Assembly: GCA_005862285.1 (NCBI GenBank)
Contig: SZXW01000014.1
Span: forward strand, 186,001 to 250,000
From: Chlorobium sp.
GTDB taxonomy: Bacteria > Bacteroidota > Chlorobiia > Chlorobiales > Chlorobiaceae
Length of the DNA stretch: 64,000 bases
Reading direction: 5' to 3'
Shown: positions 34,031 through 61,092 of the stretch, piece after piece
How positions within the stretch are numbered: the first letter of the stretch is position 1
Layout of the letters: each line of letters opens with the position of its first letter
Notes under the pieces: model-generated
The model's input: the letters and a program-made list of their open reading frames with translations, nothing else
Database searches by the model: none
Told to the model about the DNA's origin: nothing
Position numbers and translations under genes: made by a program

Positions 34031-34744
34031 TCAGCTTTTTGAAAAGATCATGACGAGACCTGAATTACGGTCTTTCCTGAAAGTAGCCTTGTCGTAACCG
34101 GCATAGATACCCGCGAGTGAAAACCCTGCATTTTCATGAAGCTGAACATATTGTTCCGATGAAACCGGGTACAGCACGGAGCTCTCCCGAAAAACCGTAG
34201 TGCCTCCTGAAACAAGTTTCACCTCAAAGATCACATTACTCGATGAAATGAAGGAATAGGAACGGTAAAACGATGTTTCTCCGCTCCCGATATGTTTTAC
34301 CGGAAATGAATATTCGGCAAGGGTAACGAGAAAATCCCAGTTCACAACCTGAACTATCCAGTATCCCCCTCTTTCAAGAGAAGCATGGATGTCATGAAAA
34401 AATGCCGGAAGTCTGTTCTGAGGAAGATGCGAAAGCACATTGCCGATTGAGTAGACAAGATCGAACGATCCTTGCAGTGATCCAATCAAGGCTATATCCA
34501 TGCACCTGAACATGGCTCCTGAATATGCCGCTGCGGCTGCTTCGATCATCCTGCCGTCGAGATCGATCCCGGTCACCTGGTATCCATCCTGAAAAAACCT
34601 TCCGCAGTAATGGCCGGGGCCACAGCCGGCATCGAGAATAGTTCCGCCATTCACTCCGGCATACCCACGGAGAAAACCATAGACTTCCTCCCTGAAGGGA
34701 AATACCTGCTCGTAATATGGTGCGAAATCTGAATAAAATGACAT
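34031..34744 (-). CDS. class I SAM-dependent methyltransferase
   Basis: 237 residues. Motif I TILDAGCGPGHYCGRF at about residues 35-50, GIDLDGRMIEAA (acidic residue for the SAM ribose) and FDLVYSIGNVLSHLP identify a Rossmann-fold methyltransferase. Substrate not predictable. It lies 54 bases downstream of dsbD on the same strand and could be the last gene of the TlpA/DUF4266/DUF3570/ApbE/DsbD operon. Confidence 0.85.
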   Translation of the reverse strand: MSFYSDFAPYYEQVFPFREEVYGFLRGYAGVNGGTILDAGCGPGHYCGRFFQDGYQVTGIDLDGRMIEAAAAAYSGAMFRCMDIALIGSLQGSFDLVYSIGNVLSHLPQNRLPAFFHDIHASLERGGYWIVQVVNWDFLVTLAEYSFPVKHIGSGETSFYRSYSFISSSNVIFEVKLVSGGTTVFRESSVLYPVSSEQYVQLHENAGFSLAGIYAGYDKATFRKDRNSGLVMIFSKS

Positions 34745-34798: not shown

Positions 34799-36691
34799 TC
34801 AATGTATCAACAGTTTTTTTATATGATCGTAAAATGCCGGCGCCTCCATAACGCCTATTACCCTGCTGTCGGGGATTTCCCTGCCCGTCCTGTCAAAGAA
34901 TATGATGCCCGGAGGCCCGAACAGCCCGAACCGTTTCATCAGCGCCCGCGCGTCTTCGCTGTTCGACGTCACATCGACCTGCAGCAGCGTCAGCTTGCCG
35001 AGCTCCTCTTTCACCTTCGGATCATGCAGCGTGAATTTCTCCATCTCCTTGCAAGCCACACACCAGTCCGCATAGAAGTCCAGCATCACCGGCCTGTCAG
35101 ACGACTGGAGCGCCTTGTCGAGCTCTGCCGGGGTGCTGATCCTTTTGAACGCGATCTTTTCGCCTTGCGCCTTATCACCGGCCGATCCTCTGCCCGCCTG
35201 CAGATGGCCGAGCGGTTCCAGGGCATTGCTTCCGCCTGATGCAGCCCCAACCAGTTCCGCTATGCCGATCACAAACAGCACCAGCCCGAATGCCTTGCCG
35301 AAACGCTGCCCGATCGTGGTCTTGCCCGTATGGGTTTCGAACACATTGAGAAATACCGCGCACAGTATCGCAAATGCTCCCCACGCCAGCATCACGCCCT
35401 GCACAGGCAGCACCGGTGATACCATCCAGACCGCAACCGCTATCAGCAGCAGGCCAAACACATATTTCACCCCGATCATCCAGCCTCCGGCTTTCGGCAG
35501 GAGGCTCCCGGCAGAAAGTCCCACCAGAAGAAGCGGCACGCTCATACCCAACGCCATCGAAAACAGGGCCAGCCCGCCGATCAGCACATCTTTCGTCTGG
35601 CTGATATAGACAAGCGTCCCGGCAAGCGGCGCCGCGACACAAGGTCCAACGATCAGGGCCGAAAGCGAACCCATCACGAACACTCCCAGGAATTTGCCAC
35701 CCTTCTGTTTGCCCGATGCCTGGTTCAGCCTGTTCTGGATCGCTGCAGGCATCTGCAGCTGGTAGACATCGAACATCGAGAGCGAAAGCAGCACGAGCAG
35801 CAGGGCAAACAGCACAAGCACCCAGGGTTTCTGCAGCGCGCCGGACAGCCCCTCCCCGGCAAGGCCCGCCGCAACGCCAAGCGACGTATAGACCAGCGAC
35901 ATGCCGAGGCAGTATGCAACGGCCATCAGAAAACTGCGCCTGCGGGTGACCTCACCCTCGCCAACGATGATCGACGAGAGGATCGGGATCATCGGAAGAA
36001 CACACGGGGTGAACGACAGCAGCAGACCGAAGAACAGGAACGCTATCGAGATTTTCCATAGGCTCCCACCAGCGAGCGTCGCTTTCGCCAGGGAGAGATC
36101 GTTTTCTCCTCCGGCTTTTACATTTGTATTACCGCTCGATACCGCTGCCGATGGAGTGGACGGTTTTGCCGCACCCGCGACACCCGCCGCCGGGGCTGGG
36201 TTCTGTTCGCCAGCCGCGGCAAGCACTCCCGGAACGCCGGGATCGATTTCGTACGACTTCGTTATCGGAGGATAGCAGAGCCCGTCCTCAGCACACCCCT
36301 GATATTCCACCTGCATGGTGAACCTGCCATCAGCTTTTGACACCGGAACAGCGACATCGAGACGGTCGTGATAGATCTCGAGTTTTTCATTCGTTGACGG
36401 GTCCGTTATCGTGATGCCTTTCGGCAATACCGGCTGCTGCACGTTCGCGCTGCCCTTCTCGACACTCACCTTCACCCGGTCACGGTAAAGCTTGTACCCC
36501 TTGGCGATGTCCCAGTGCAGCGAAACAGAGCGGTTCGCGCCCAGTTCCGCCTTAACCTTGAACGCCTGTTCCGGATCGAGAAAGTCCGCTCCGAACGCGC
36601 TGCCGAACCGCAGCAGCAGGATCATGATCATAACGGCTATAGTCATCACCGTTCCCCTGCAATACCTCTCCTTCTTCATCATGGTTGTCAT
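34799..36691 (-). CDS. dsbD: thiol:disulfide interchange protein DsbD
   Basis: 630 residues in three parts. A signal peptide and N-terminal immunoglobulin-like domain with the cysteine pair CAEDGLCYPP (about residue 145); a transmembrane core with redox cysteines in FTPCVLPMIP and VGPCVAAP; and a C-terminal thioredoxin domain with YADWCVACKEME. It carries electrons from cytoplasmic thioredoxin through the membrane to periplasmic thiol proteins. The ATG used has only a weak upstream GAG. Cotranscribed with ApbE six bases upstream and, further up, with a TlpA-like thioredoxin that may be its partner. It may also supply reductant for cytochrome c assembly. Confidence 0.95.
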   Translation of the reverse strand: MTTMMKKERYCRGTVMTIAVMIMILLLRFGSAFGADFLDPEQAFKVKAELGANRSVSLHWDIAKGYKLYRDRVKVSVEKGSANVQQPVLPKGITITDPSTNEKLEIYHDRLDVAVPVSKADGRFTMQVEYQGCAEDGLCYPPITKSYEIDPGVPGVLAAAGEQNPAPAAGVAGAAKPSTPSAAVSSGNTNVKAGGENDLSLAKATLAGGSLWKISIAFLFFGLLLSFTPCVLPMIPILSSIIVGEGEVTRRRSFLMAVAYCLGMSLVYTSLGVAAGLAGEGLSGALQKPWVLVLFALLLVLLSLSMFDVYQLQMPAAIQNRLNQASGKQKGGKFLGVFVMGSLSALIVGPCVAAPLAGTLVYISQTKDVLIGGLALFSMALGMSVPLLLVGLSAGSLLPKAGGWMIGVKYVFGLLLIAVAVWMVSPVLPVQGVMLAWGAFAILCAVFLNVFETHTGKTTIGQRFGKAFGLVLFVIGIAELVGAASGGSNALEPLGHLQAGRGSAGDKAQGEKIAFKRISTPAELDKALQSSDRPVMLDFYADWCVACKEMEKFTLHDPKVKEELGKLTLLQVDVTSNSEDARALMKRFGLFGPPGIIFFDRTGREIPDSRVIGVMEAPAFYDHIKKLLIH

Positions 36692-36697
36692 GGTTGC

Positions 36698-37585
36698 TCA
36701 GTTTCTGTGATGAATGGCTCCCGTAATGTCCACTGCAAGATATTTCATTCCCGTATGAGACAGATAATGAAGCCCTTCCTCCTCCTTCAGCATCGCAATC
36801 GTCGACCGGCTGCCCGCCAGCAGTGTCGTGGCGGCAAGTATGGTGACCGACTGCCAGGAGCTAACCGGCATACCCGTCCCCGGATTGAGTATGTGGCAAT
36901 AGCGCCGACCTTCCGATTCAAAATACCGTTCATAATCTCCGCTGGTGGCAAGTGCACCGGAGTAGAGAGGAATTGAGGCAATTGTGCGTTTTTCATGCCG
37001 CGGGTCCTGGATACCGATCACCCACGGGCTCCCGTCCGGTCTTGGCCCGACAACACGAATATCTCCTCCAAGGTTGACATAACCCGAGCGGACACCATGA
37101 TTCAACAGAACAGCCGCACTGCAATCCGCAGCATACTCTTTTCCGAAGCCTCCGAAATCGAGCTGCATGCCGGTTACAGGAAGATAAACGGTTTTATCTT
37201 GACGTTCCACAGATTCCCATCCTACAAGTCCAAGGAAAGGAGCAAGCACCTCCGGACCGGGAACCGATGCCTTTTTGAAATCCCATGCCTGACGCAAAAC
37301 TCCCGAAGTGATATCGAACAAGCCGCCGCTGCTCTTGTAAAATGCATCGGCATAACGTAAAAGTGTTAACGTCTCTTCATCGCACTCGACTCTTTCAATG
37401 CCGGCAGCGGCATTGATTTTAGATACCACGCTGTCAGAAAGGTATCTGGAATATTTCTTCTCGATTCTTGCTATTTCATGAACTGCAAATTCCGCAACTG
37501 CCTCGGCACCCTTTTTACTTTCATAAGCCATGACCACCTCGCAGCTGCTCGACATGGCTTCAAATCCGAAACGAAAAATATTCAT
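36698..37585 (-). CDS. apbE: ApbE family FAD:protein FMN transferase
   Basis: 295 residues. Family motifs: MQLDFGGFGKEYAAD (Mg and FAD binding), VNLGGDIRV, SGALATSGDYERYF, HILNPGTGMPV and LLAGSRSTIAML. ApbE attaches FMN to Ser/Thr of exported redox proteins. The usual lipoprotein signal is absent: the protein starts MNIFRFGFEAMSSSCEVV directly in the mature fold, so it is probably cytoplasmic or its export signal is lost. No protein with an obvious DxxTS(T)-type flavinylation motif is encoded in this operon; the target is unknown. Confidence 0.9.
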   Translation of the reverse strand: MNIFRFGFEAMSSSCEVVMAYESKKGAEAVAEFAVHEIARIEKKYSRYLSDSVVSKINAAAGIERVECDEETLTLLRYADAFYKSSGGLFDITSGVLRQAWDFKKASVPGPEVLAPFLGLVGWESVERQDKTVYLPVTGMQLDFGGFGKEYAADCSAAVLLNHGVRSGYVNLGGDIRVVGPRPDGSPWVIGIQDPRHEKRTIASIPLYSGALATSGDYERYFESEGRRYCHILNPGTGMPVSSWQSVTILAATTLLAGSRSTIAMLKEEEGLHYLSHTGMKYLAVDITGAIHHRN

Positions 37586-37617
37586 TATCTCTTGCTGATT
37601 ACAGACATGGCGGTCGC

Positions 37618-38817
37618 TTAAAACGTCCTCGACACACCGATTTGAACGTCTCTGGCATTGAATGAAGCCACTCCCGGATCACCTTTTCCGGAAAGGCTCC
37701 ATTCCCCGCGTTGTTCATACCTCTCATACTTCACATCGACCAGCCAGTGGGCGGACAGCTGCTTGCTGAGCTTGAGGCCAAGAGCTACCGCACCGAAAGC
37801 GGACAGACGCTGGTCCTCCGAATAGTAAACGGCACCGGCCGGTGGCGGAACAGGCTTTGAAGGATCGGAGCCGGTTGCGATATAAAAATCGGCCTCGCTC
37901 TGTGAATAGAACCTGACTTGCGGCGTAAGCGCCCAACCTTTCGGGAGCGGCTGAACATATTCCGCGCCAAGCGTGTGCGCCCTGACACCCCAGGTATCCT
38001 GGTAGTACCTGTATGAAAGGTGCATGGTGCCGTCAGTACTTTCGAAATGGTGATTCCACCTGGTCATGAATGTTGCGCTGTTACGTCCTCGCGGCCGGAT
38101 GTCCGGGTCCTTGAAAGGATCGGTATAATAACCGTTTCCAATGGAGTACCCGAAATTGAACTGCATGATATCGGTTTTCGCAAGCACTTTTGTCAGACCG
38201 AAAAGACCGGCATAAACCATCTTTTTTTCAGGATCTTTCTGTTTTTTCGATGCGATGACATTGTCCCCGCTCAGGTCGATGCTGTCGTCATTGACGCTTG
38301 CACCGATCGTACAGGTCGTATTCCTGTCTTCGGTCGACCAGCTTCCCTGAAGCGAGATACCACGGGAAATGTAATCATTCTCCTTTGAATAACTGAGACC
38401 GCCGGTCACGGAACCTCTCGAAAAATATCGGGTAAGCTCCACATCTCCCGCATGCCGGTGATCGAGGGCCGAAGCACCGGATACAGCCGATGGGAAACCA
38501 GCCGAATGATAAGCCGGAGAGGCTCCGGTTACAGTATCATCAAGCAGGCTGACATTCAGCGACCACTCTCCTGCTACAGGTACCATACTCATGAGTGACA
38601 AAGCCTGAACCCCGATTCTCTCTCTCGACATTCCGGCAGTCAGGGCGGTATCGCCTGTCTGCCAGTCCCTGTAATTTAGATATTTCAGGCTGACGATCCC
38701 ATTTTCAGGGGGTGTATCACCATAAACGGGGCGTATCGCAGGGAATGCCAGTGTCACGCCGATAATCGCCGTACAAAAAAGAGTGGATTTCGTTTTCAAT
38801 GCTGGTATATTCATCAT
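37618..38817 (-). CDS. DUF3570 outer-membrane beta-barrel protein
   Basis: 399 residues with a signal peptide (MMNIPALKTKSTLF..., cleaved near PVYGD). The rest alternates polar and hydrophobic residues and ends in aromatic DVQIGVSRTF, the C-terminal Phe signature of outer-membrane barrels. DUF3570 proteins are found beside DUF4266, ApbE and thioredoxin genes in many bacteria, as here. ATG at 38817 chosen over an upstream TTG at 38838. Role unknown; may be the surface element of the system. Confidence 0.78.
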   Translation of the reverse strand: MMNIPALKTKSTLFCTAIIGVTLAFPAIRPVYGDTPPENGIVSLKYLNYRDWQTGDTALTAGMSRERIGVQALSLMSMVPVAGEWSLNVSLLDDTVTGASPAYHSAGFPSAVSGASALDHRHAGDVELTRYFSRGSVTGGLSYSKENDYISRGISLQGSWSTEDRNTTCTIGASVNDDSIDLSGDNVIASKKQKDPEKKMVYAGLFGLTKVLAKTDIMQFNFGYSIGNGYYTDPFKDPDIRPRGRNSATFMTRWNHHFESTDGTMHLSYRYYQDTWGVRAHTLGAEYVQPLPKGWALTPQVRFYSQSEADFYIATGSDPSKPVPPPAGAVYYSEDQRLSAFGAVALGLKLSKQLSAHWLVDVKYERYEQRGEWSLSGKGDPGVASFNARDVQIGVSRTF

Positions 38818-38838
38818 GTGTCGGGTGTTAACATACAA

Positions 38839-39078
38839 TCAGTTGCAACCGCATCCGCCCCCTCCAACGCCTGCGCCGCCGGATGCCGCTTCCTTGCTGC
38901 TGTAGATATGCTCTGTATATTTCTTTTCGAGCCTGTCACCCTCGAATGTCATTTCAGGCCGGGCAAGTGTGCCTTTTTCCCAGGGCTGGACAGATTGTCC
39001 GATGGAACAACCCGATAAAGCGAGCGTGATTGCCAGCAATAAAAGGTGAAACGTGTTCTGTAACAGGCGTCTTTTCAT
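38839..39078 (-). CDS. DUF4266 lipoprotein with Gly-rich CGCN tail
   Basis: 79 residues. Lipobox LALSGC with the acylated Cys at 24; then the family motif QPWEKGTLARPEMTFEGD (residues 31-48) and YTEHIYSSKEAA, and a striking C-terminus of glycines ending GGGGCGCN (Cys76, Cys78). The two exposed cysteines at the tip look like a metal-binding or redox-active tail, or a modified-peptide site. It overlaps the TlpA-like gene by four bases (ATGA) and precedes DUF3570. Partner thioredoxin and DsbD suggest that the cysteines must be kept reduced. Chemistry unknown. Confidence 0.8.
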   Translation of the reverse strand: MKRRLLQNTFHLLLLAITLALSGCSIGQSVQPWEKGTLARPEMTFEGDRLEKKYTEHIYSSKEAASGGAGVGGGGCGCN

Positions 39079-39590
39079 CCCTTCGACTCCAATGCCGCCT
39101 GAATCTGCTTTTCAAGCATTCCCTGATCAGCATCCTTGAATCCCGTATGCTGCAGGATAATCTTTCCATCCCTGCCGACAAGAAAACTGGTCGGCATCCC
39201 CTTGACACCGTAACTCCGGGGCGTAACGCCTTTGTCATCAAATGCGATAGCGAATTTTGCAGGAACCTGCGACAGGAATTTTCTTGCATCGTCACTTTTT
39301 GCATCAAGATTGACCCCTATGACCTTGAAGGCCCTGGCTTTATATTTTTCCTGCATGGAGTTCAGCCAGGGAAAGGACTGCTTGCAAGGCCCGCACCAGG
39401 ATGCCCAGAAATCGAGGTAAACCACCGAACCAGCCGAATCCGAAAGTCTGACCGATCCCTGAGTCCCCGGCAGTTCAAAATCCGGGGCATGATTGCCGGT
39501 ATCGATGGCCGATGCACTTCCGGAAAATCCAAGACAAATGAGAGCTGCAAGGAAAAATCCTTTGACTGTTTTGCGATGAACAGTTTCCAT
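39075..39590 (-). CDS. TlpA/ResA-like periplasmic thioredoxin
   Basis: 171 residues from the ATG at 39590 (the longer frame lacks a good start). Signal peptide to about SGSASA, then a thioredoxin fold with WASWCGPCKQSF active site (WCxxC) and the cis-proline VKGMPTSFLVGRDG. First gene of the DUF4266/DUF3570/ApbE/DsbD operon. It likely reduces disulfides of the DUF4266 tail or of apocytochromes c, receiving electrons from DsbD. Confidence 0.9.
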   Translation of the reverse strand: METVHRKTVKGFFLAALICLGFSGSASAIDTGNHAPDFELPGTQGSVRLSDSAGSVVYLDFWASWCGPCKQSFPWLNSMQEKYKARAFKVIGVNLDAKSDDARKFLSQVPAKFAIAFDDKGVTPRSYGVKGMPTSFLVGRDGKIILQHTGFKDADQGMLEKQIQAALESKG

Positions 39591-39962
39591 AGTCAGTCGC
39601 GTCCTGTTATAAAGTTGAAACCGCAATACATACGAACCTGTTTACCAAAAGCCGTCATCCTTTCACACAGGCATCATCCTGCCTGCTGAAAATCTATAAA
39701 TAGTCGTTGAGAGCGATTTGAGGGAAAGCGCCAATCCAGACGGCAATCAAATTGCCACCGGGAAAATAGTACTTATAGTTGTAAAGAACGATCGTTCAAC
39801 ATGAATGAGGGATGCTATGCGGTAAAAAGCATTTTATATTTTAACAATTGTTATTTTTGATTCCAAATACAAAATCAACAGGGTTGATCAAACTTTACCG
39901 AGCCAGCTGTTGACTTATTCAATATCGTGAGCTGATGATGTAAAAGATCCCTGATTAAAAGC
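39591..39962. promoter_or_regulatory. operon upstream region with 12-bp palindrome
   Basis: 372 bases without a gene, upstream of the TlpA-like gene. A perfect palindrome GAACGATCGTTC lies at 39786-39797. Its 10-base core AACGATCGTT recurs at 60394-60403, upstream of the Cyc2-like and ccs genes. This is a candidate regulator site. Confidence 0.35.
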
Positions 39963-43759: not shown

Positions 43760-44299
43760 ATGAAAGCAGTAATTAAAACTCTGGCAACGCCTCTCGCTTC
43801 AGCAGCATTTTTCATTTCAGCTGTTACAGGAGTTCTTCTTTTTTTTGAAATCGAAATCGGTCTTGTTGAACCTGCCCACAAATGGCTCAGCTGGTTATTG
43901 TTGTCCGGAATTCTGGTGCATATCCTTCTTCACTGGAAACAATTTACCGGATATTTATCAAGCAAGCCAGCTTTGGCTGTTATTGGTGGAGGCATGCTCA
44001 TGACGGTTCTGGCTCTTTATCCGGGGTTTGGTGAGAAAGAAGAGGAAGGAAGAGAAAACCTCGGAAAAATAACCTCACATGCACTTACTTCATCTTCACT
44101 TGAAACCGTGGCTCTTGTTGTCAATAAAAGTCCGGAAAATCTTATTGACAACCTTGCAGGAAAGGGAATTACTGTTAAAAATCAATCTTTGACGATACAG
44201 GAAATAGCAAGGCAAAATGGTAAAAGTGACAAGGCTCTTCTCGGAGAGTTGCTTGCTGAGGTAAAAGGAGCCGAAAAAACCGGGAAAGACCGGGATTGA
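43760..44299 (+). CDS. DUF4405-type membrane protein with soluble tail
   Basis: 179 residues. Three hydrophobic segments (residues 12-30, 42-58, 73-90) with histidines in EPAHKWLSW and GILVHILLHWKQF that could be heme b ligands, followed by a soluble C-terminal half of about 85 residues (ENLIDNLAGKGITVKN and LTIQEIARQNGKSDKALLGELLAEV). The membrane part resembles DUF4405 (flavocytochrome/hydrogenase-b-like) proteins. First gene of a three-gene unit with a b-type membrane cytochrome and a decaheme cytochrome. Likely a membrane electron-transfer subunit. Confidence 0.7.
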   Translation: MKAVIKTLATPLASAAFFISAVTGVLLFFEIEIGLVEPAHKWLSWLLLSGILVHILLHWKQFTGYLSSKPALAVIGGGMLMTVLALYPGFGEKEEEGRENLGKITSHALTSSSLETVALVVNKSPENLIDNLAGKGITVKNQSLTIQEIARQNGKSDKALLGELLAEVKGAEKTGKDRD

Positions 44300-44393
44300 G
44301 TTTCGGCTGATCCGTTATGTATTGAAAACTGCCGGATCAGACAGGATTCTGGCAGTTTTCAAATAGTACAACTCTTTCAAAACATTATTCACG

Positions 44394-44969
44394 ATGTGGA
44401 ATTCAGTCCTGGTTCAAAGAGCTTTACCTCTTACCATTTCATACCTCCTGCTGATTCTCGCGGCTATTGCTCTTGACGCGATCCTTCATGTCGCTCACAT
44501 GGCATGGATTGGAAGATACCTCGGTGTTCCAGGCACACTGTTCTTTATCCTCTCATTCGGGTATTCGGCCCGTAAAAAAAAGATGATAAAAAACGGAGCT
44601 CTTGGTATCTTTCTGAGGCTCCACTGCAATGCCGGATGGATAGGAACCCTTATGATCCTTATTCATTCCGGAATCCATTTCAATGCCCTCCTTCCATGGG
44701 CAGCTACAGCATTCATGCTGGTCGTAACAGGCAGCGGGCACATTGGTCAGTATCTGCTTAAAAAGGTGAAAGCCGAGGTGAAAATGAAACTGCAATCCGC
44801 TGGAGCCGTCGTGAATGATGACGATCTGGAACAGCAACGCTACTGGGATACCCTGACGGTCAAAACGCTTGAAAAATGGAGAGCCGTGCACATGCCTCTT
44901 GTAGCCGTTCTGCTTGCTCTGACCATGTTACATATTCTCAGTATTGCATACTTCTTAAACTGGAGTTGA
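44394..44969 (+). CDS. b-type membrane cytochrome (ferric reductase-like)
   Basis: 191 residues with about five transmembrane helices. Histidines are placed in pairs in the membrane: HVAHMAW, RLHCNAGW, LIHSGIHF, GHIGQYL, RAVHMPLV and MLHILSIAYF. This matches a diheme b-type cytochrome of the ferric-reductase-like or cytochrome b561-like kind. It starts 94 bases after the DUF4405-type gene and ends three bases before the decaheme gene, so it is probably the quinone-side partner of that cytochrome. Confidence 0.75.
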   Translation: MWNSVLVQRALPLTISYLLLILAAIALDAILHVAHMAWIGRYLGVPGTLFFILSFGYSARKKKMIKNGALGIFLRLHCNAGWIGTLMILIHSGIHFNALLPWAATAFMLVVTGSGHIGQYLLKKVKAEVKMKLQSAGAVVNDDDLEQQRYWDTLTVKTLEKWRAVHMPLVAVLLALTMLHILSIAYFLNWS

Positions 44970-44972
44970 ACC

Positions 44973-51820: not shown

Positions 51821-52420
51821 TTACTTGGTAAGTGCGATCGCAACTGTCGAAGCCTGTCCGTCCTTTACGGTAACCGTCGTTTTCGCTGCTTTCAGCTTTT
51901 CGTTCCAGACGCCGACTTCATAAGTACCGGCAGGAACGTTCGCAATGGAGAATTTGCCATCCGCACCGGTGACAGCAAAGTAGTTACTGTCAACAGCAAC
52001 GACATAACCGGACATTTCGGAATGGACGTTACAGAGCAGGTTTACCACGCATGGTTTGCCAAAAACAATGGCTTTTGACTGGCCGGGATTGTAGGTGCCA
52101 AGATTGAATTTATTGCAGGCATCACCAGAGAAGATATTGTGATTGACCTTGTCGCTGTTCTTGAACTCGACACTGGTACCGGTCGGCACCGCAAGCACAT
52201 GAGGAACGAACACAAGATTTTTCTGATCGACTTCGCCCTTGCCGGCTTTGACAGGACCGGCTACGCCCTTGATATAGACCACCGTATCCTTCTTGTATTT
52301 TGCTGGCGTGGCATCGACGGTGCCGGAAACAGTGCCGGCAGAAAATGCATTGGAACTGATGAAGCCGAAAGCAGCTGCCAACAGGGTGGTTTTCAATAAC
52401 GAGCTTTTGTTTTTTAACAT
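51821..52420 (-). CDS. periplasmic cupredoxin with carboxypeptidase-regulatory-like domain
   Basis: 199 residues from the ATG at 52420 (GGAG six bases upstream). Signal peptide to SNAFSA. Residues about 55-130 form a plastocyanin-like domain with type 1 copper ligands: His in KVNHNIFSGD, then LLCNVHSEMSGYV giving Cys, His and Met in the C-x2-H-x2-M spacing. Residues 140-199 (GADGKFSIANVPAGTYEVGVWN and TVTVKDGQASTVAI) match the beta-sandwich carboxypeptidase regulatory-like domain. The gene follows the Rieske/cytochrome b operon on the same strand with 83 bases between. It could be a copper electron shuttle to the complex. Confidence 0.82.
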   Translation of the reverse strand: MLKNKSSLLKTTLLAAAFGFISSNAFSAGTVSGTVDATPAKYKKDTVVYIKGVAGPVKAGKGEVDQKNLVFVPHVLAVPTGTSVEFKNSDKVNHNIFSGDACNKFNLGTYNPGQSKAIVFGKPCVVNLLCNVHSEMSGYVVAVDSNYFAVTGADGKFSIANVPAGTYEVGVWNEKLKAAKTTVTVKDGQASTVAIALTK

Positions 52421-52503
52421 TGCAGACTCCAATTATTTGTTAGACGAAAAAAAGCGAAACAGATATTTAACATATATACTACGCAAAATAACCAGGAGAA
52501 ATT

Positions 52504-52944
52504 TCAGCTTCCTGAAAAAGTTTTAATGTAGATTACAATGAACTCGATTTCCTCCGGATTGAACGAGTTAGCCCAGGGAGGGCACATATTCGATTTGCCG
52601 ACCGATGCCGAACCTTCATTGATAGACTTGAACAGCACCTCGTCTGGGAGGGTTTTCATGAAAGCCTTGTCAGTGAAATTGGCCGGGCTCGGAGTGAGGC
52701 CGTAATACTGGCCCGCGCCATCACCTGTCTCTCCATGACATACGCCGCAGTAATGGTCGTAAAGCCGTTTGCCCTCCTTCAGTGCATATGGCTTTTTCGA
52801 TGCAGCTGCCGCCGAATCGGCGGCAGATACTGCATTGTTCGGGGCTTTCGCCCCTTTTTCCTGTTTTTTGCCGCACCCCGTAACGACAATTACGGAAAGT
52901 GCTGCGAATAAAGCGATATTTCTGATTCTCATAGTTTTTTGCAT
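52504..52944 (-). CDS. lipoprotein monoheme cytochrome c
   Basis: 146 residues from the ATG at 52944, overlapping the stop of the octaheme gene by ATGA. Lipoprotein signal ends VVTGCGKK; an Ala/Ser/Lys-rich linker leads to one heme site in YDHYCGVCHGETGDG, with a methionine candidate in KSNMCPPW. This is a cytochrome c class I domain tethered by lipid to the membrane. As last gene of the Rieske/cytochrome b operon it is probably the electron carrier or docking subunit of the complex. Confidence 0.88.
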   Translation of the reverse strand: MQKTMRIRNIALFAALSVIVVTGCGKKQEKGAKAPNNAVSAADSAAAASKKPYALKEGKRLYDHYCGVCHGETGDGAGQYYGLTPSPANFTDKAFMKTLPDEVLFKSINEGSASVGKSNMCPPWANSFNPEEIEFIVIYIKTFSGS

Positions 52945-55559
52945 CACTTTGCGTTCAGTTTCAGGGTCATCAAATAGTTTGTCAGATAAATTCGTTCCCG
53001 TTCCGAGAACCCGTAATTCGGTTCGACAATATCCGGCTTGAACTTGCGGGCATTTTCAAGATGTTTGAAAATAAACCCTGGATTCAGCCTGTTACCGACA
53101 TTCGACAAGTTCGGCCCGAGAGCACCACCTTCAGTACCTACCTGGTGACACGCTTTACACCCTTTCAGATCATACAGCTCCTTGCCCTTGGCAACCTGCT
53201 CTTCCGGAGACAGGGTCGTGATAACCGGAATCTGTTTCGGTATATCGGTCGTCACCAGTTCCTGCTGGAAGTAATTGATGATGACATCGACATCCGACCT
53301 GTTTGTATCCTCAACTTTCTGTGTACCGAGATTGAACTTCGGCATGGTCACTTTCTGAGGCGTTTGACCGGCACTCAGGCCAAACTTCGGCATCTGCTGC
53401 AGGAGCGGACGGATAACATCCGGGTTTGCAAGGAACTTGCGTATCCAGGATTCCTGCAGTTTGCTGCCTGCGACTGTAAGATCCGGAGCATAATCCGCGC
53501 CGATACCCTTGATCGAATGGCAGTTCGTACACTTAACATCACCTATAACCTTTGCAAAATCACCTGTGAACTTGTACGACGGCACACCGGCAATTTTGTC
53601 AAGCTGCTGGCGGGATGGCACCATATATCTGGACGGAATGTTGTTGTCGGTAAATCCGTACAGCACCGATGCCAGGCCGTTGATCTCGCTTTCCGTCAGG
53701 CGGAAGTTAGGCATCCTGAGACCAAGACGATATCCCCTCGGATCTCTCAGCTTCTGCTTGATATAGCTGAGCCTGTCATTCGGTATCGATTTCTTGAGTT
53801 TTCCGAAATCGAGCATATCTACCGGTTTGCTGCCGATCGAGGAAAGTTCCGCCCCGATTTTCTCCTTCATTTCCTCGCCTTTCAGGAAGGTGACGCCCTG
53901 GCTCAGGAGCGATGGAGCAACCTGGACCATCTCCTCCATACCCTGAAGCTTGTGGCAGCCATAGCAGCCATACTTGAGGATAAGGTCCTTACCTTTCCGG
54001 ATGGATTCAGCCTTTATCTCGACCGGTGTGGTATACTTCATCTCCGCGTCATCATCCTTGTACTCGTTGACGATATATTCGACAAGCGCGTTGATTTCCT
54101 GGTCGGTAAAGCGGAACCTCGGCATCTTTGTACCAGGGAAGTAGGCATTCGGGTTCTTGATCCACTTGAACATCCACTCCTTGCTGACTTTGCTGCCGAT
54201 TTTGCTCAGATCGGGAGCATATACCTTCACGTTGTTGCCGCCTTTGCCGTTGGTGACATGACAGAGATTACACCTGGCCTGGCTCCAGAGCTGTTTTCCC
54301 TGATCGACCAGCTTTTCGTCGGGCTTTGCACTTGCATAATCAACATCATGCCGTGTGTTGCCAGACATGCTGAAAAGATAGTCTGCAATAGCTTCAGCCT
54401 CGTCCTGCTTGAAGTAGAACTTCGGCATCCTTGCCTTTGAAAAATATTTCTTCGGATCGAGAAGCCAGTTTATAGCCCAGCTGTAATTGACCTTGGTGCC
54501 CACCTCTGTAAGTACCGGTCCGACATCGCCGAAACCATCGTATCCGGGAATCTTGTGGCAGCTGTAGCATCCGTATTTCCTGACCAGCTCTGTATTCTGA
54601 GCGATATATTCAGCTCCGCGAAGCTGCTTGACGTCACCATGGCAGTTCAGGCATGATGTCTGAGTCATATCACCCTCGAGCATGGGCTCATCCCAATGCT
54701 TCTCGTTTCCATGAGCTTTTACAACAGAAGTAGTGGCCCTGCCTTGACCGCGGTGACAGAACGTACAACCGAATTTCTCGGGATCGTGGTTCTTCAGGAA
54801 AACGAAACTTGCAGGATGCCTGGTAAACGGCTGTTTCATTGAAATCTGTTTCGAACCGTCTATACCGATATGGCATGACTGACAGCGGTCTGCCTTGTCG
54901 ATATCCTTGATATAGACCTGCTTGATCTCTACCGGAACCTTGTCGCTTGTGCCGATCCTCTCCTTTTTTTCATCGAGCACGCTTTCAAGCTTTGAAATTT
55001 CAGCTTGCAGGTCAGCAATACCTGCCGTATATGGTGCTAATGAGCTTTTAAGTCCATCCCCCTGCTTCTGCAGCACCGTCGCCCTGGAGGCAATGGTATC
55101 GATCTGCTTCTGCAACTCGTCCATTTTTTTCTTGTACTCGGGCTTCTGCGTCTTCGTAAAGTAATACTCCGTTTCGAGATACTGTCCGCGGGCTGTCTGC
55201 AGTTCCTTCGTATTTTTTACACTATGCTCATGATTTTCAACCCACTGTGCATTCAGCTTTTTGTACTTCTCCTGCACATCATTGCTGTTAAAAAGATCCT
55301 CGGCTTTCTTGAGCTGTGCCTTCAGTGCTGCAAGTTTCTGCGCGTCTCCGGACTTCTGGAAATCGCTCGCTGCCTTGCTGTACTCTTTCTCAAGCTGGGC
55401 ATGCTTCAGAGTCTTGAATTCCTGCTGGTAATTCTTCCAAGGCCTCAGTCCAAACTCGTCGTCCCATACGATCCAGAGCGTAAGGGCCAGCAAGACCACA
55501 CTGAAAAACACAAAGAGATAAGCTCTGTAGTTTGAATTATTTTTATTCTCATTCGCCAT
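52944..55559 (-). CDS. octaheme c-type cytochrome on a long coiled coil
   Basis: 871 residues. One transmembrane anchor near residues 12-32, then about 165 residues of heptad-rich helix (roughly 45-208, QLKKAEDLFNSND and IADLQAEISKLESVLDEKK), then eight CxxCH sites (CQSCH, CTFCH, CLNCH, CYSCH, CNLCH, CYGCH, CTNCH, CKACH). Later hemes lie in repeated class I modules with MPKF/MPRF/MPNF methionine ligands. The coil would hold the heme string away from the membrane. It lies 61 bases after the subunit IV gene in the Rieske/cytochrome b operon and probably takes the place of cytochrome c1. The architecture is unusual. Confidence 0.9.
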   Translation of the reverse strand: MANENKNNSNYRAYLFVFFSVVLLALTLWIVWDDEFGLRPWKNYQQEFKTLKHAQLEKEYSKAASDFQKSGDAQKLAALKAQLKKAEDLFNSNDVQEKYKKLNAQWVENHEHSVKNTKELQTARGQYLETEYYFTKTQKPEYKKKMDELQKQIDTIASRATVLQKQGDGLKSSLAPYTAGIADLQAEISKLESVLDEKKERIGTSDKVPVEIKQVYIKDIDKADRCQSCHIGIDGSKQISMKQPFTRHPASFVFLKNHDPEKFGCTFCHRGQGRATTSVVKAHGNEKHWDEPMLEGDMTQTSCLNCHGDVKQLRGAEYIAQNTELVRKYGCYSCHKIPGYDGFGDVGPVLTEVGTKVNYSWAINWLLDPKKYFSKARMPKFYFKQDEAEAIADYLFSMSGNTRHDVDYASAKPDEKLVDQGKQLWSQARCNLCHVTNGKGGNNVKVYAPDLSKIGSKVSKEWMFKWIKNPNAYFPGTKMPRFRFTDQEINALVEYIVNEYKDDDAEMKYTTPVEIKAESIRKGKDLILKYGCYGCHKLQGMEEMVQVAPSLLSQGVTFLKGEEMKEKIGAELSSIGSKPVDMLDFGKLKKSIPNDRLSYIKQKLRDPRGYRLGLRMPNFRLTESEINGLASVLYGFTDNNIPSRYMVPSRQQLDKIAGVPSYKFTGDFAKVIGDVKCTNCHSIKGIGADYAPDLTVAGSKLQESWIRKFLANPDVIRPLLQQMPKFGLSAGQTPQKVTMPKFNLGTQKVEDTNRSDVDVIINYFQQELVTTDIPKQIPVITTLSPEEQVAKGKELYDLKGCKACHQVGTEGGALGPNLSNVGNRLNPGFIFKHLENARKFKPDIVEPNYGFSERERIYLTNYLMTLKLNAK

Positions 55560-55626
55560 TTTCAACTGTTTTTTTTGGACTTATTGAATGACCTGTTACT
55601 GTATTCCGGAACCAGACCCCCTCTCT

Positions 55627-56511
55627 TCACACGTTGAACCAGGGGGTAATCCATATGTACTTGATAAGAAAGACAAGTCTCAGCACCATCTTGATCGGTA
55701 TGGACATCATGGTGATGAAAAGAGATGTCGTAACGATATAACGGATCATTCCGAACTCTTTCAGGAACTCCGGCATTTTCTTTTTCAGGTATTTGTATGG
55801 AGCTATCATTCCGCCGATCAGATAACCGTTTACTACGATCGCTCCCAGGATGAACCCCGGCAGCGAACGGGAATCGATGCCAAAAACTGTCGAGAAGTCA
55901 CGTGTCGGCTCAAAAACAACCCTTGCATGATCCCACTCCTGCCATGGCCAGTACCACAGCCAGCCCGGACCGCGGAAAAACACCCCAATCACGATAAGCA
56001 GCAGCCAGAGAATGAAGAAACCGAAAGAAAACGTGATGATGGCAAATTTTCTTTCCTCAAAACTGTAGTAGCCGTTCCCTTTGGGATTGATATCGATATA
56101 GGGAATAGCCATAAGCCCGACAATGATCAATGACGGCAGAACAACGCCTGCAAGCCAGGGATCGAAATAAACGAGAAGTTCCTGAAGCCCGAGGAAATAC
56201 CAGGGTGCCTTGGCAGGGTTCGGCGTCAAGGTCGGGTTCGCTATCTCCTCGAGAGGCGCATCGACCACGATCGACCAGAAGGTGAGAAACACCATAACTG
56301 CAAGTGCGATGATCAGCTCGATTCGCACAAGCGGCTTGAACGTATCGACAAGTCCTTCATTCTCACCGTCGACCGGCTGGCCCACAGCTATGAGCTTGTC
56401 GTTCTGAAAAGCCTGCTGGAACGCCCACACCGTGAAAAAGCTCACCAGGATGACCATGATCACGATGGCGATATTATCAGGCTGGGTAATGATTTCAATA
56501 AAAGGATTCAT
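55627..56511 (-). CDS. cytochrome b subunit IV-like protein
   Basis: 294 residues with about six to seven transmembrane segments. Region PNPAKAPWYFLGLQELLVYF contains the Qo-site equivalent of the PEWY motif, here APWY. Downstream helices match the C-terminal half of cytochrome b/subunit IV. It is separate from the b6-like gene 21 bases upstream, whereas Chlorobium tepidum-type cytochrome b is one protein. Forms the quinone-binding half of the Rieske/cytochrome b complex. Confidence 0.85.
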   Translation of the reverse strand: MNPFIEIITQPDNIAIVIMVILVSFFTVWAFQQAFQNDKLIAVGQPVDGENEGLVDTFKPLVRIELIIALAVMVFLTFWSIVVDAPLEEIANPTLTPNPAKAPWYFLGLQELLVYFDPWLAGVVLPSLIIVGLMAIPYIDINPKGNGYYSFEERKFAIITFSFGFFILWLLLIVIGVFFRGPGWLWYWPWQEWDHARVVFEPTRDFSTVFGIDSRSLPGFILGAIVVNGYLIGGMIAPYKYLKKKMPEFLKEFGMIRYIVTTSLFITMMSIPIKMVLRLVFLIKYIWITPWFNV

Positions 56512-56532
56512 AATTTACTGCGCCCGGTCTGA

Positions 56533-57306
56533 TTATTTATGAGGTTTTGAAATACCGCCGTCCTTTCTGACACGCCAGAAATGAACGAACATCAATATCA
56601 CCGAAACAAGCGGAATTGCCACGCAATGCCAGATGTATGCCCTGAGGAGGGCGTTGTCGGCAACACGGGAACCGCCGAGAAGCGCGAAACGCACATCGTT
56701 GAAGGGTGTGATATGAAGAAACTCACTGAAGGGCCCCTGGTAGCCGAGCAACGGCGTTGCAGCGCCCATGTTGGTACCAACGGTAATAGCCCAGAAACCA
56801 AGCTGGTCCCATGGCGTCAGATAACCAGTAAAACTGAGCATGAAGGTCAGCACCAGCAGGATCACGCCGACACCCCAGTTGAACTGGCGGGGAGCCTTGT
56901 AGGAACCGGTCATGAAAACCCGGAACATGTGAATCATCACGACAATGACCATGAAATGCGCACCCCACCGGTGCAGGTTCCTGAGGATAACACCGAATGG
57001 AACCTGGAACTCGAGATCCTTGATATCCGAATAAGCCTGGCTGACTGAAGGATGATAGTAAAACATCAGTACGACCCCGGTAATAACGAGGATTATGAAG
57101 GCAAAAAAGGTAATGCCGCCCATGCCCCAGGTAAAGCGCAGTTTGACCGCGCCTTCCCTTACCTGTACGGGGTGCAGGTGAAGGAAGACGTTGCCGAAAA
57201 TAGCCTGGGCCCTGTCCCTGACCGTGTTCCGGTAATCCCTTCTGAAAATGGATTTCCAGATAATATTCTTCTTTACCCTCTCTTTGATGTCCGTTGGGTT
57301 ATTCAT
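56533..57306 (-). CDS. cytochrome b6-like subunit
   Basis: 257 residues, four transmembrane helices plus an N-terminal amphipathic region. The two heme b ligand pairs are visible: [20 protein letters not shown] (about residues 108-127) and [20 protein letters not shown] (about 224-243). [13 protein letters not shown] is the conserved loop after helix C. Carries two heme b groups and the Qi site of the complex. Follows the ferredoxin gene by 30 bases. Confidence 0.9.
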
Positions 57307-57336
57307 TGTGCCGTATCATTTTATTTACTGAACAGA

Positions 57337-57663
57337 TTACTGGTAACCGCGAAGCCTTTTAAGCTGTTTTTCGTACTGGACCTGGTCCCTTTTCGATCCA
57401 TCCGGATTGAACATTTCGACGCTGGTCCATGGACAGTCGATGGCGCAGATATTGCAGCCGGTGCAGTGCTGCAAATCGACAACCGCAATACCGTTGAAGT
57501 TCAGCTCGGATTCGATAATCGATATGCAGTGCGTCGGACAGGACTGAACACAGATCCTGCAGCCGGTGCACCATTCGGAACGGATTTGCGCAAGACCGCG
57601 CTTGCGCGCTCCTTTCGGGGTCGAATGTTCCGAAGACTCGACTCTTGTTTCATCGATGCTCAT
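57337..57663 (-). CDS. 2[4Fe-4S] ferredoxin in cytochrome bc operon
   Basis: 108 residues with two complete clusters: CTGCRICVQSCP and CTGCNICAIDCP. An N-terminal extension of about 30 residues is polar; the C-terminus is basic. No signal peptide, so it should be cytoplasmic. A ferredoxin inside a Rieske/cytochrome b operon is unusual and suggests that the complex exchanges electrons with a cytoplasmic low-potential carrier, or that the protein is a bound subunit. Confidence 0.88.
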   Translation of the reverse strand: MSIDETRVESSEHSTPKGARKRGLAQIRSEWCTGCRICVQSCPTHCISIIESELNFNGIAVVDLQHCTGCNICAIDCPWTSVEMFNPDGSKRDQVQYEKQLKRLRGYQ

Positions 57664-57697
57664 ATACTTACAGCTATTAGGTAATTAACTTTATCGA

Positions 57698-58252
57698 TCA
57701 TACCCTGAGCAGGCTCTGGGGATAGACCTCACCTGATTCCTTGCCGGGAATGCCCGGGTATTTTATGGTCTTGTCGACCTGAAGCTGGCCGTCTTCAGCG
57801 ATACTGAGCTTGAAGCGGTCCATCGGTCTGGGAGCGGGCCCCTCGAAGTTCAGACCGGTAATGTAGTATCCGCTGCCATGGCAGGGACACTTGAATTTTT
57901 TCTGAGCCTCCATCCAGCTCGGTGTACATCCCAGATGAGTACACCTCGACTCCATGGCAAAAAAGCTGCCATCCTGAAGCCTGATGATCCAGGTACCGAA
58001 TTCACGCTGGTATTGGGAATTGACTGTACCCGGAGGATAGTCGGCCGGAAACCCCACCTTGAATAAAGATGCCGGCTCGAACAGCACGCGCGGGTAAAAG
58101 AACCGTAAAAATGCCGCCGAGTTGATGGCAAGGAACCCCACGAGGCTGCCCCACCCGACACGGGTGAGAAATTTCCTTCTGCTGTCGGATTCGGCCTGGC
58201 CTGAACCTCTTTCTTCGTGATACTGCGTCACGAAATCACTGTCACCCTGCAT
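57698..58252 (-). CDS. petC: Rieske iron-sulfur protein
   Basis: 184 residues. A membrane anchor follows SRRKFLTRVGWGSLVGF, with a twin-arginine-like motif (SRRKF) consistent with Tat export. Cluster ligands: CTHLGC (Cys104, His106, disulfide Cys109) and CPCHGSG (Cys122, His125, disulfide Cys124). It takes an electron from quinol at the Qo site and passes it to a cytochrome. First gene of the operon petC-ferredoxin-b6-subunit IV-octaheme-lipocytochrome. Confidence 0.93.
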   Translation of the reverse strand: MQGDSDFVTQYHEERGSGQAESDSRRKFLTRVGWGSLVGFLAINSAAFLRFFYPRVLFEPASLFKVGFPADYPPGTVNSQYQREFGTWIIRLQDGSFFAMESRCTHLGCTPSWMEAQKKFKCPCHGSGYYITGLNFEGPAPRPMDRFKLSIAEDGQLQVDKTIKYPGIPGKESGEVYPQSLLRV

Positions 58253-58458
58253 AGCGGATTGATTTTTCTTTCAATGAAACCTTTTCTTTTTCCTGATAAA
58301 ACCGGAAGGGGAGGAACGATAAAAAACACGTTCCGTCAAGATATAAAAAAGGTGTGTTACAAACGTCCTTTACAGGAACTATTTTTTATTAACACACCTC
58401 CCAACACACAACCAACGAAACTTAAATCACACTAACACACGTCAAAAATCCCGTGCGA

Positions 58459-58490
58459 GAGAAAGGCGCGTAAAAAACGCGCCTTTTCTC
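58459..58490. terminator. terminator between Cyc2-like and Rieske genes
   Basis: Stem GAGAAAGGCGCGT / ACGCGCCTTTTCTC with an AAAA loop and one bulged base, 36 bases after the stop of the Cyc2-like gene. It shows that the Cyc2-like gene and the Rieske operon have separate transcripts on the minus strand. The 58253-58458 remainder must hold the Rieske promoter. Confidence 0.75.
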
Positions 58491-58525
58491 ATGCCTGTCA
58501 GACGATTACAACACCGTCCCTGCTC

Positions 58526-59857
58526 TTAGAAAGCAAGAGCTGTGGTGAACTTGAAGGTATTCGCATTGTTAAAAATGCCATTAGCATCAGCCACAGGGTT
58601 GTTGCCCTTTTCGAACAGGACATAGGCCGCTGCGAACGACACGTTAGCCCTCGGCCATGCGGTCACGGTAAACGTATAGGTCGGGTTGGTTATATTAGAG
58701 TTACCTGCATGCACCCCGTCAGAACCCCAAGTCTCGACACTCTTGTAGGTGACGGCCGCCTTCAGCCAGGGATAGACGAAATAACCCGCATCGACCTGAT
58801 AGTTGTTCAGATCGTTGTCAACACCCCGGCTCCAGGCTGCACCGCCGGTGAAGCTGCCGTAGTTTCCGGCAATATCGACACCGTAAACGGTCCGGTTGTT
58901 CTTGTACCCGTAAGAGGAGGAGCTGAAGATTCCGGGCAGCGCATTGACTACGCTCGCACCGATCTCAAGAGAATTGTCGAGGCCGATATACTCGTTGCCG
59001 TAGGTTCCGCCTGCACCGCTCAGCACGCCTGCACCGCCGATTTTGAATTCTGCGCGGGCATATTTGATGTCATCGAGACCATTTGTCGTACTGGAATTCA
59101 ACGCCTGGTCCGTGCCATTGCTGACTGCTCCGGCATAGAATCGGAAGCCTCCCGATTTTTCGCCTGTAGCATAGGCAAGCTCGACACCGGCACCATTTGA
59201 CGGAGGAAGAATAGCTGACCAGGTAGCCTCGTCTTCACCGCTCGACATGAAGCTGAACTGATTACCTACGCTGAGCATGAGTCCCGGAGTGAATGTCCAT
59301 GTACCGCGGAAACGGGCCACGATATTGTTGGCGCTCACCTTGTTATTATTACCGGCCGCAAATCCTTCGAACGAGCCGAAAAAGCCGATATTGCTGCCGA
59401 TCGTTCCACCGTAAAGGATACGGGCATCGAAAGGACCTGCCCAGTCTGCAACCTGGCCCGTTTTTACCTGACCATTTTTAGCTCCACTCTTGTACTTTAT
59501 CTCATCGGCATAGTTGAAGAGCGGACCGGTTACGAAGATTGCGACCGGCGCAAAACCAGGGATGTCGGTAGGCCAGGGTGAGCTTGGAAAGGATTTTTTC
59601 CAGCCGTCAGACCCCATTTTTGTCTGCTCCTGTTTTGCATGATCCTCATCCTCTCCACCCGGCCAGCGATAGCCGTTTGCCTTGAAAGCTTCACCGAAAG
59701 CGTTCCTTGCTGGGAAACCTGCGTGACAGGTGTAACATGAGGTCTGGTATTTTCTTGCAAAGGCAGGTATTGCCTGGCTGTCCTGGCTCCAGAACAGCAT
59801 AGGCACCATACCGAGCGTAGCGAGTGATGCAATTTTAACGACGGACTGTCTCTTCAT
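58526..59857 (-). CDS. Cyc2-like monoheme cytochrome-porin fusion
   Basis: 443 residues from the ATG at 59857, with GGAGAGG just upstream. Signal peptide to about residue 29; then FARKYQTSCYTCH (heme Cys41, Cys44, His45) and FGEAFKANGYRWPGG. Residues about 95-443 alternate like an outer-membrane barrel and end in FKFTTALAF with a terminal Phe. The order short heme domain plus porin is that of Cyc2, the outer-membrane Fe(II) oxidase of iron-oxidising bacteria including some Chlorobium. The FARKYxTS variant also occurs in other, uncharacterised porin-cytochromes, so iron oxidation is a hypothesis. Confidence 0.8.
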   Translation of the reverse strand: MKRQSVVKIASLATLGMVPMLFWSQDSQAIPAFARKYQTSCYTCHAGFPARNAFGEAFKANGYRWPGGEDEDHAKQEQTKMGSDGWKKSFPSSPWPTDIPGFAPVAIFVTGPLFNYADEIKYKSGAKNGQVKTGQVADWAGPFDARILYGGTIGSNIGFFGSFEGFAAGNNNKVSANNIVARFRGTWTFTPGLMLSVGNQFSFMSSGEDEATWSAILPPSNGAGVELAYATGEKSGGFRFYAGAVSNGTDQALNSSTTNGLDDIKYARAEFKIGGAGVLSGAGGTYGNEYIGLDNSLEIGASVVNALPGIFSSSSYGYKNNRTVYGVDIAGNYGSFTGGAAWSRGVDNDLNNYQVDAGYFVYPWLKAAVTYKSVETWGSDGVHAGNSNITNPTYTFTVTAWPRANVSFAAAYVLFEKGNNPVADANGIFNNANTFKFTTALAF

Positions 59858-60375
59858 AAACCTCTCCACATTTAGACTTTTTATTGTTTGTTGTTGTTTT
59901 TACTTAACCGCTTTACTACTGAAAAGACGCATACAATTCCCTCGGGTAACACATGGCACCGAAAAAGCGCAACCCGGATGAAACCCGTTCTGGATCGAGC
60001 GAAACCGGACACTCAACCAGGCCGGCGGATATTTGATATAGAGACCCTTGAACTATCAGGATATGCGGGATGAAAGACGACACGAGCGTTAACAACCGCC
60101 ACCATACTTCCTTATCAACAGAAACCGCAACGTGGAACTTGCAATCGGAACGATAACAATCAAACAGCAGAAACAACCAAAAACCAGATCAATCGATAAC
60201 AATCAGGACAAAAAAAAGTTGGAGTCAGACCGGAAACCATCACTAATCACAATAAAAGACGACACAATAAAATCGCCGTTTTTCAGGCGAACGTAAGATT
60301 GCCGAGAGGTACGTTTTGCTCAAGCAATCTGTCTTAACTTAAACCTTGGGGTCAATTAAACGAGGAGTTCAACTT

Positions 60376-60548: not shown

Positions 60549-61092
60549 GAATTCAAACAAATCTCAATCACTTCGGAAGAATATTAAACAATTGTTAAAA
60601 ACTTCCAAATTTTTCCAAAAAATAATTTAATCCCGTTATCCTGGGGTCAGGAAATTGGGCAGCTTCAATCTTCTGCTGAAATATCGAAAAGCTGCCGGTA
60701 TCATCACACTTCACATACCTAACCAAAAGATCAGTATAATAAAAAAAGGTTACAATTGTTATTTGCTAAACGCTGCCGACACTGTTATATTTCTTTGCTG
60801 CAAAAAGCGAATGTTATCACTATCTTCTTTTTAAAAAATAACTTGTGCGCATTCCCGCTCTTTGCAGACAAAGCCTTTTTCCCTCCCATCCTGGCTATGG
60901 GACCTGGATACGAAAATTCTTCTCACTCATCGTGATGAATAAAAGTCCATTTGACAAACCGGATATCCCCGGTATGTCAGCATTTTGTCTTTAAGAAAAA
61001 ACTTTTCGAGCCGGAGAGCGGTTCATAACCCAAAATTCCGGGTTCTCTGGTGAACTTTCTAATTGCACTCAAGGTACAGGAACAATTCTATT

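Follow-up and report, generated by a model that had tools for sequence, protein, structure and literature searches.

A DsbD-type flavinylation operon of Chlorobium as a candidate haem-free electron conduit across the outer membrane

What DUF3570-based flavinylation serves has been an open question since 2021, and a compact locus in a 64,000-nucleotide stretch of Chlorobium sp. DNA (contig SZXW01000014.1, positions 186,001 to 250,000; hereafter the window) raises that question directly. Its five minus-strand open reading frames (ORFs) encode, from first to last, TlpA, DUF4266, DUF3570, ApbE and DsbD, and a sequence-only reading had described them as a dedicated envelope redox or peptide-modification system of unknown purpose. 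Our analysis indicates that, by its gene content, the operon is a member of the published DsbD-type flavinylation system, and we consider it reasonably probable that this system passes thiol electrons through DUF4266 to surface flavins carried by an outer-membrane barrel.

Gene content and membership in a known system

The first gene of the operon encodes a TlpA/ResA-like thioredoxin of 183 aa with an N-terminal signal and a WCGPC active site (39075..39626); the five ORFs stand where the sequence-only reading had placed them, except that the 5′ limit of the span is 39626 and not 39590. It overlaps by 4 nt the gene for DUF4266 (38839..39078; PF14086, E = 1e-23), a 79-aa product that bears out the description of a tiny lipoprotein with a Gly/Cys tail, its lipobox reading LSGC24S, with the lipobox Cys at residue 24, and its C-terminus GGAGVGGGGCGCN, in which the CGCN tail with its CxC pair occupies 38842..38853. 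The third gene (37618..38838) encodes DUF3570, a predicted 16-stranded outer-membrane β-barrel and presumed ApbE substrate, with the flavinylation motifs DTVTGAS at 104 (TGAS, residues 104–107, 38518..38529) and SAVSGAS at 120 (SGAS, residues 120–123, 38470..38481). After a gap of 32 nt follows the flavin mononucleotide (FMN) transferase ApbE (295 aa, 36698..37585) and, 6 nt further, DsbD (630 aa, 34799..36691), which combines DsbD_N, transmembrane and C-terminal thioredoxin domains and in which the expected redox cysteine pairs are readable. All five products scored above the Pfam cut-offs (AhpC-TSA/Redoxin 4e-23, DUF4266 1e-23, DUF3570 (PF12094) 1e-62, ApbE (PF02424) 5e-74 and DsbD_TM 1e-94).

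In the relevant passages of Méheust et al. (2021, eLife, PMC8238504), the DsbD-type system comprises DsbD, ApbE, DUF3570, a thioredoxin-like protein and a DUF4266 protein with a CxC tail; the five-gene clusters are widespread in their survey, redox cycling of the DUF4266 CxC pair is proposed, and the ApbE of Chlorobium luteolum was shown experimentally to flavinylate DUF3570 at two [S/T]GA[S/T] serines. The window holds every genomic element of this set, namely a two-motif DUF3570, a clustered ApbE (the single one of the genome), a CxC-bearing DUF4266, a thioredoxin and DsbD. Because the genome belongs to the Chlorobiaceae and its DUF3570 carries both flavinylation sites, we assign the operon to that system; the tested DUF3570 likewise came from Chlorobium, whereas the window TlpA is of the AhpC-TSA/Redoxin type and the thioredoxin of the published system, in the passages concerned, is PF13899. 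The notion of a dedicated envelope redox system thus agrees with the published set, but ApbE does not lack a visible target, since the neighbouring DUF3570 is a demonstrated ApbE substrate in the same genus and both motifs are present in the window copy. The label of unknown purpose holds for the terminal acceptor.

Co-occurrence was counted across 61 genomes of the genus Chlorobium, with further genomes sampled outside it; the nearest named locus (L078, 86% identity) belongs to a Chlorobiaceae metagenome-assembled genome (MAG), and others belong to Chlorobium MAGs. DUF3570 was present in 47 of the 61 genomes, and DUF4266 accompanied it in 43 of these 47 while being found in none of the 14 DUF3570-free genomes, which argues that the operon is not a chance assembly. 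Outside the genus, both families were carried by the same six genomes, and a Vibrio replicon exhibits the identical order TlpA-DUF4266-DUF3570-ApbE-DsbD, as read directly from the DNA of three unannotated records from a plasmid search. The sequence-only reading had named a failure of the genes to co-occur elsewhere as grounds against it; the strong co-occurrence in the genus and the Vibrio order, together with the Pfam matches, establish that the five packed genes are real and belong together.

The composition of the locus also varies. A second TlpA-DUF4266-DUF3570 trio stands in the window genome on another contig (C1, L003 7730–9647), without ApbE or DsbD, and its DUF3570 keeps a single GAS motif. 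DsbD with an RlpA neighbour occurs without flavin genes in L144–L146, and a 42-residue ApbE-like fragment remains at the contig end of L144. Since the DsbD-RlpA pair also exists without them, the flavin genes are accessory and DsbD is the core gene. The CGCN tail was kept in every Chlorobium DUF4266 copy listed, while a few more distant members carry CGCG or CACN instead.

Barrel topology and the signal-less ApbE

The AlphaFold model of DUF3570 (13 sequences) is a 16-stranded barrel with a mean predicted local distance difference test (pLDDT) score of 81, and its best matches in the PDB were all outer-membrane barrels (e.g., FadL, OmpG and PelB), which upholds the outer-membrane assignment of the sequence-only reading. 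In mature numbering (residue minus 40), the motifs fall at 64–67 (TGAS) and 80–83 (SGAS), and the loop after strand 3 spans residues 65–84. Loops that follow odd strands are long (14 residues on average) and those that follow even strands short (3.4); because of this difference the odd-strand loops are assigned to the outside, so that both flavin sites presumably lie in a long, extracellular loop of the model. The extra or displaced motifs of paralogues occur in loop 1 or 2, loop 1 lying on the same side as the window sites, and the more distant DUF3570 families have two sites at the same places, mostly as [ST]SAS. As a separate observation, an extra outer-membrane barrel of about 280 residues (OpcA/OMP_b-brl-like) lies between DUF3570 genes in some relatives (L066 9151–10023; L040 7030–7824; L076 7466–8314).

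Regarding ApbE, the reading frame opens directly with the domain, and a signal peptide was absent from every Chlorobium operon copy listed, as well as from the Bacteroidota copies L060–L063 and the Vibrio copy; the absence of an export signal noted earlier thus extends well beyond the window. A longer start concealing a signal peptide was considered and rejected, the upstream in-frame residues not being hydrophobic. Hydrophobic N-termini do occur on ApbE in two same-order copies (L058 and L059) and on a second Chlorobium ApbE type. The active-site segments SGDYER and HILNPxTG are present in the window protein. In all Chlorobium operon copies aligned, the Mg-ligand Asp is replaced by Gly (AGSxxT) with the Thr kept, and the second Chlorobium type retains ADAxxT; in Treponema pallidum ApbE the corresponding Asp284 and Thr288 take part in Mg binding (PMC5655446). 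The cognate C. luteolum ApbE, which may or may not share this change, is active according to the flavinylation experiment in PMC8238504. Neither the Mg-binding pair, though common, nor a signal peptide or lipobox, though usual, defines the ApbE family. Cytosolic ApbEs are known, for instance the Klebsiella enzyme (PMC12052999), which like the window ApbE carries no signal; its substrate, fumarate reductase, is a soluble cytosolic enzyme, whereas that of the window would be an exported barrel. Because the operon ApbE is signal-less and cytosolic ApbEs exist, flavinylation in the cytosol before export would be the simplest reading.

A repeat protein with its own flavinylation motif in sister genomes

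The neighborhoods of the relative loci contain a further gene, most often between DUF3570 and ApbE, encoding a protein of very variable length that is built of immunoglobulin (Ig)-like (Big_5, Big_12), SWM or RTX repeats and has no Sec signal. We profiled its N-terminal domain of about 105 residues (profile A1) and searched the relatives: 38 of the 39 strong matches had DUF3570 or ApbE no more than 8 kb away, and the domain was present in 32 of the 47 DUF3570-positive genomes and in 0 of the 14 negative ones. The motif [ST]GAS was found in a hairpin of 31 of the 34 adjacent domains read (the exceptions being SGSS, SGTS and AGAT), with a chance of 7.4% per domain by shuffling, and in 0 of five remote non-adjacent RTX homologues. 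Loss of the motif Asp at −3 has a minor effect and Ser is accepted, according to a motif review (PMC12052999). The motif codons vary synonymously, and because the acceptor Ser is almost only AGY in the repeat protein and TCN in DUF3570, DUF3570 was probably not the source of the motif. When another genus of the family was then examined independently, it yielded five more repeat proteins, all beside operon genes; [ST]GAS is present in four of them and SGSS in the fifth. Likewise, L086 6420–7879 holds a Chlorobium-like TlpA-DUF4266-DUF3570-ApbE set followed by an RTX protein with a canonical DTLSGAS; its contig is binned as a betaproteobacterium, which reflects either horizontal transfer or misbinning.

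In the nearest sister locus (L068 6852–15471), the gene for a TGAS-bearing Ig-repeat protein precedes those for two ABC transporters, HlyD and TolC, and the flavin operon stands on either side of these secretion genes; the window, by contrast, holds the operon once and lacks all of them. Other repeat-protein copies (L067) end in an RTX-type C-terminus. A profile search at E ≤ 1e-3 found the N-terminal domain neither in the window nor in the rest of its genome, a state consistent with loss or with the gene never having been gained. The AlphaFold model of this domain reached a pLDDT of 54 and was not used. From these sequences we tentatively propose, as a possibility worth stating, that the complete Chlorobiaceae system comprises six gene kinds, in which a cytosolic ApbE would flavinylate both DUF3570 and the N-terminal [ST]GAS hairpin of the Ig/RTX protein before type I secretion, giving a haem-free flavin-thiol route across the outer membrane and onto the cell surface; the window would hold the version without the secreted protein.

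Among the open-access papers searched, PMC8238504 was the only one to mention DUF4266 or DUF3570, and none linked flavinylation to type I secretion; the system itself was published in 2021, but a secreted repeat protein that bears a flavin-attachment signal was undescribed. A term search of the main text of PMC8238504 returned no barrel, site topology or Ig protein, all noted here, and the passages on its DsbD-type system do not mention the signal-less ApbE or the Asp-to-Gly change found in the window branch. The new elements are how DUF3570 is laid out in the membrane, an ApbE branch devoid of signal peptides, and the Ig/RTX protein that accompanies the operon and bears a flavin motif. In two relatives (L069 in genome G028 and L070 in G034), ApbE and DsbD are kept while DUF3570 is gone (L069) or reduced to an 81-aa remnant (L070), and an Ig/RTX-repeat ORF without the N-terminal domain stands beside ApbE, an arrangement that looks like decay of the locus.

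Electron path, terminal acceptor and competing explanations

The mechanism we favour can be laid out as a series of steps. ApbE, probably cytosolic, would put FMN on the two DUF3570 serines before or during export, and DUF3570 would then insert as a 16-stranded outer-membrane barrel with both FMN sites, as modelled, facing the long-loop, extracellular side. DsbD would take thiol electrons from cytosolic thioredoxin and hand them to TlpA, which would reduce the CxC pair at the end of DUF4266, a lipoprotein of the outer membrane, and the Gly-rich tail would in turn pass them to the DUF3570 flavins and an external acceptor. We infer this order of transfer from the chemistry of the families, the arrangement of the genes and their co-occurrence. 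The acceptor, the weakest step, may be ferric iron or an iron-bearing surface, serving assimilation or redox poising near iron-linked cytochromes. In many sister genomes, the T1SS-type Ig/RTX-repeat protein would be a sixth member. Taken together, the barrel topology, the signal-less ApbE, the haem-porin linkage, the presence in all dsrA-less genomes and the repeat protein give the question of purpose a specific form, the hypothesis that the system conducts electrons across the outer membrane without haem.

Known conduits offer partial parallels. The Mtr/Pio porin-cytochrome conduits and the Cyc2 cytochrome-porins also join an outer-membrane barrel to a redox partner moving electrons across, but they use haem where the window system would use covalent flavin and cysteine pairs, and Cyc2-like porins neighbour DUF3570 operons in relatives. 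The FmnB system of Listeria, by contrast, belongs to a Gram-positive bacterium, has no outer-membrane barrel and is fed by other membrane components. It resembles the window in that, as the passages of PMC9973259 on flavin-based extracellular electron transfer describe, an ApbE-like enzyme flavinylates exported proteins that lead to external acceptors.

The identity of the acceptor was approached through neighbouring genes and distribution. In 26 of 43 genomes, the 12 kb around DUF4266 include a gene for a single-haem porin, a Cyc2-like porin stands directly upstream of the operon in L072, and in several relatives multihaem and cupredoxin genes are directly upstream of TlpA, their counterparts in the window being at 51.8–59.9 kb. 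DUF3570 was present in 21 of 21 dsrA-less genomes and in 26 of 40 with dsrA (p = 0.001, or 0.02 for genomes at least 90% complete, not corrected for phylogeny), and a strong Cyc2-like protein as such was not significantly associated (p = 0.11). In the photoferrotroph 'Ca. C. masyuteum', cyc2 is present and dsr is missing (PMC8302410). A VIT1-like transporter neighbours the operon in L060, and VIT1 is reported in 25 flavinylation clusters in the survey passages of PMC8238504. The dsrA distribution argues against a role in elemental-sulfur metabolism and is compatible with the favoured iron or mineral acceptor.

Several points weigh against the proposed route. Electron transfer through DUF4266 and onward to an external acceptor is deduced, as is its order, and full-length DUF3570 occurs without DUF4266 in three genomes (G007, G033 and G038). 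The barrel orientation is assigned by rule, and the motif loop, with its low pLDDT, may fold into the barrel. The operon ApbE is devoid of the Mg-binding Asp found elsewhere in the family, and passage of an FMN-bearing chain through Sec would be unusual. The dsrA correlation carries the phylogenetic reservation given with it. Moreover, the window genome has a single DsbD_N protein, DsbD itself, which must therefore have a housekeeping duty too.

In another explanation, which we regard as unlikely, DsbD and TlpA serve cytochrome c maturation or thiol housekeeping by keeping the cysteines of apocytochromes and other periplasmic proteins reduced for CcsBA (ResBC), and the flavin genes are no more than neighbours. 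Retention of DsbD beside RlpA, without ApbE, in DUF3570-free genomes would suit it, as would the ResB/CcsA-like genes at 61063–63107 of the window and near several relatives' operons, and the loss of Shewanella dsbD, which blocks extracellular disulfide reduction via lost cytochromes. TlpA, however, stays with DUF4266-DUF3570 where DsbD and ApbE are elsewhere (L003), nothing known ties DUF4266 and DUF3570, with their CxC and flavin sites, to haem ligation, and the clusters uniting all five genes are widespread in the survey of PMC8238504. An inward pathway, with external Fe(II) or another donor reducing the DUF3570 flavins and electrons flowing to the periplasm, appears improbable; in its favour, genes for haem-porins, Rieske/cytochrome b and multihaem cytochromes are linked to the operon, and DUF3570 is present in all dsrA-less relatives. 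Yet DsbD and TlpA normally export reducing power, and the potentials of flavins and thiols lie too low to accept electrons from Fe(II). The Vibrio and Bacteroidota carriers are also not known to oxidise Fe(II).

Two further explanations were weighed and rejected. Peptide modification, with a thioether, metal or flavin made by the operon on the CGCN tail of DUF4266, is very improbable: the Gly-rich, extremely conserved tail does resemble those of modified peptides, but a Pfam scan of the operon proteins found no modification enzyme of the kind that lies beside the precursor of a ribosomally synthesised and post-translationally modified (RiPP-like) peptide, DUF4266 contains no [ST]GA[ST] motif, and the flavin acceptor is DUF3570. 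This part of the sequence-only reading is thus abandoned, the tail being a fixed family feature for which passages in PMC8238504 propose redox cycling. The reductive mobilisation of extracellular elemental sulfur globules, which green sulfur bacteria must take up again, would suit surface thiol/flavin chemistry, and the window genome has dsrA; it is nevertheless highly unlikely, because DUF3570 is universal in dsrA-less relatives and restricted to 26 of 40 with dsrA, the opposite of its prediction, and the gene set occurs in Vibrio and Bacteroidota without dsrA over the cut-off.

Around the operon, the minus-strand redox cluster at 51821..59869 comprises a cupredoxin, a cytochrome c, an 8-CxxCH cytochrome, a split cytochrome b, a Rieske protein and a monohaem porin, and has the look of a second route by which quinol could be oxidised, with electrons led to the outer membrane. 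A 10-CxxCH cytochrome with two small membrane proteins before it lies at 43760–45848. Finally, an S-adenosylmethionine (SAM) methyltransferase gene (34031..34744, minus strand) follows DsbD after 54 bases; its operon membership is uncertain, and it is syntenic in some relatives.

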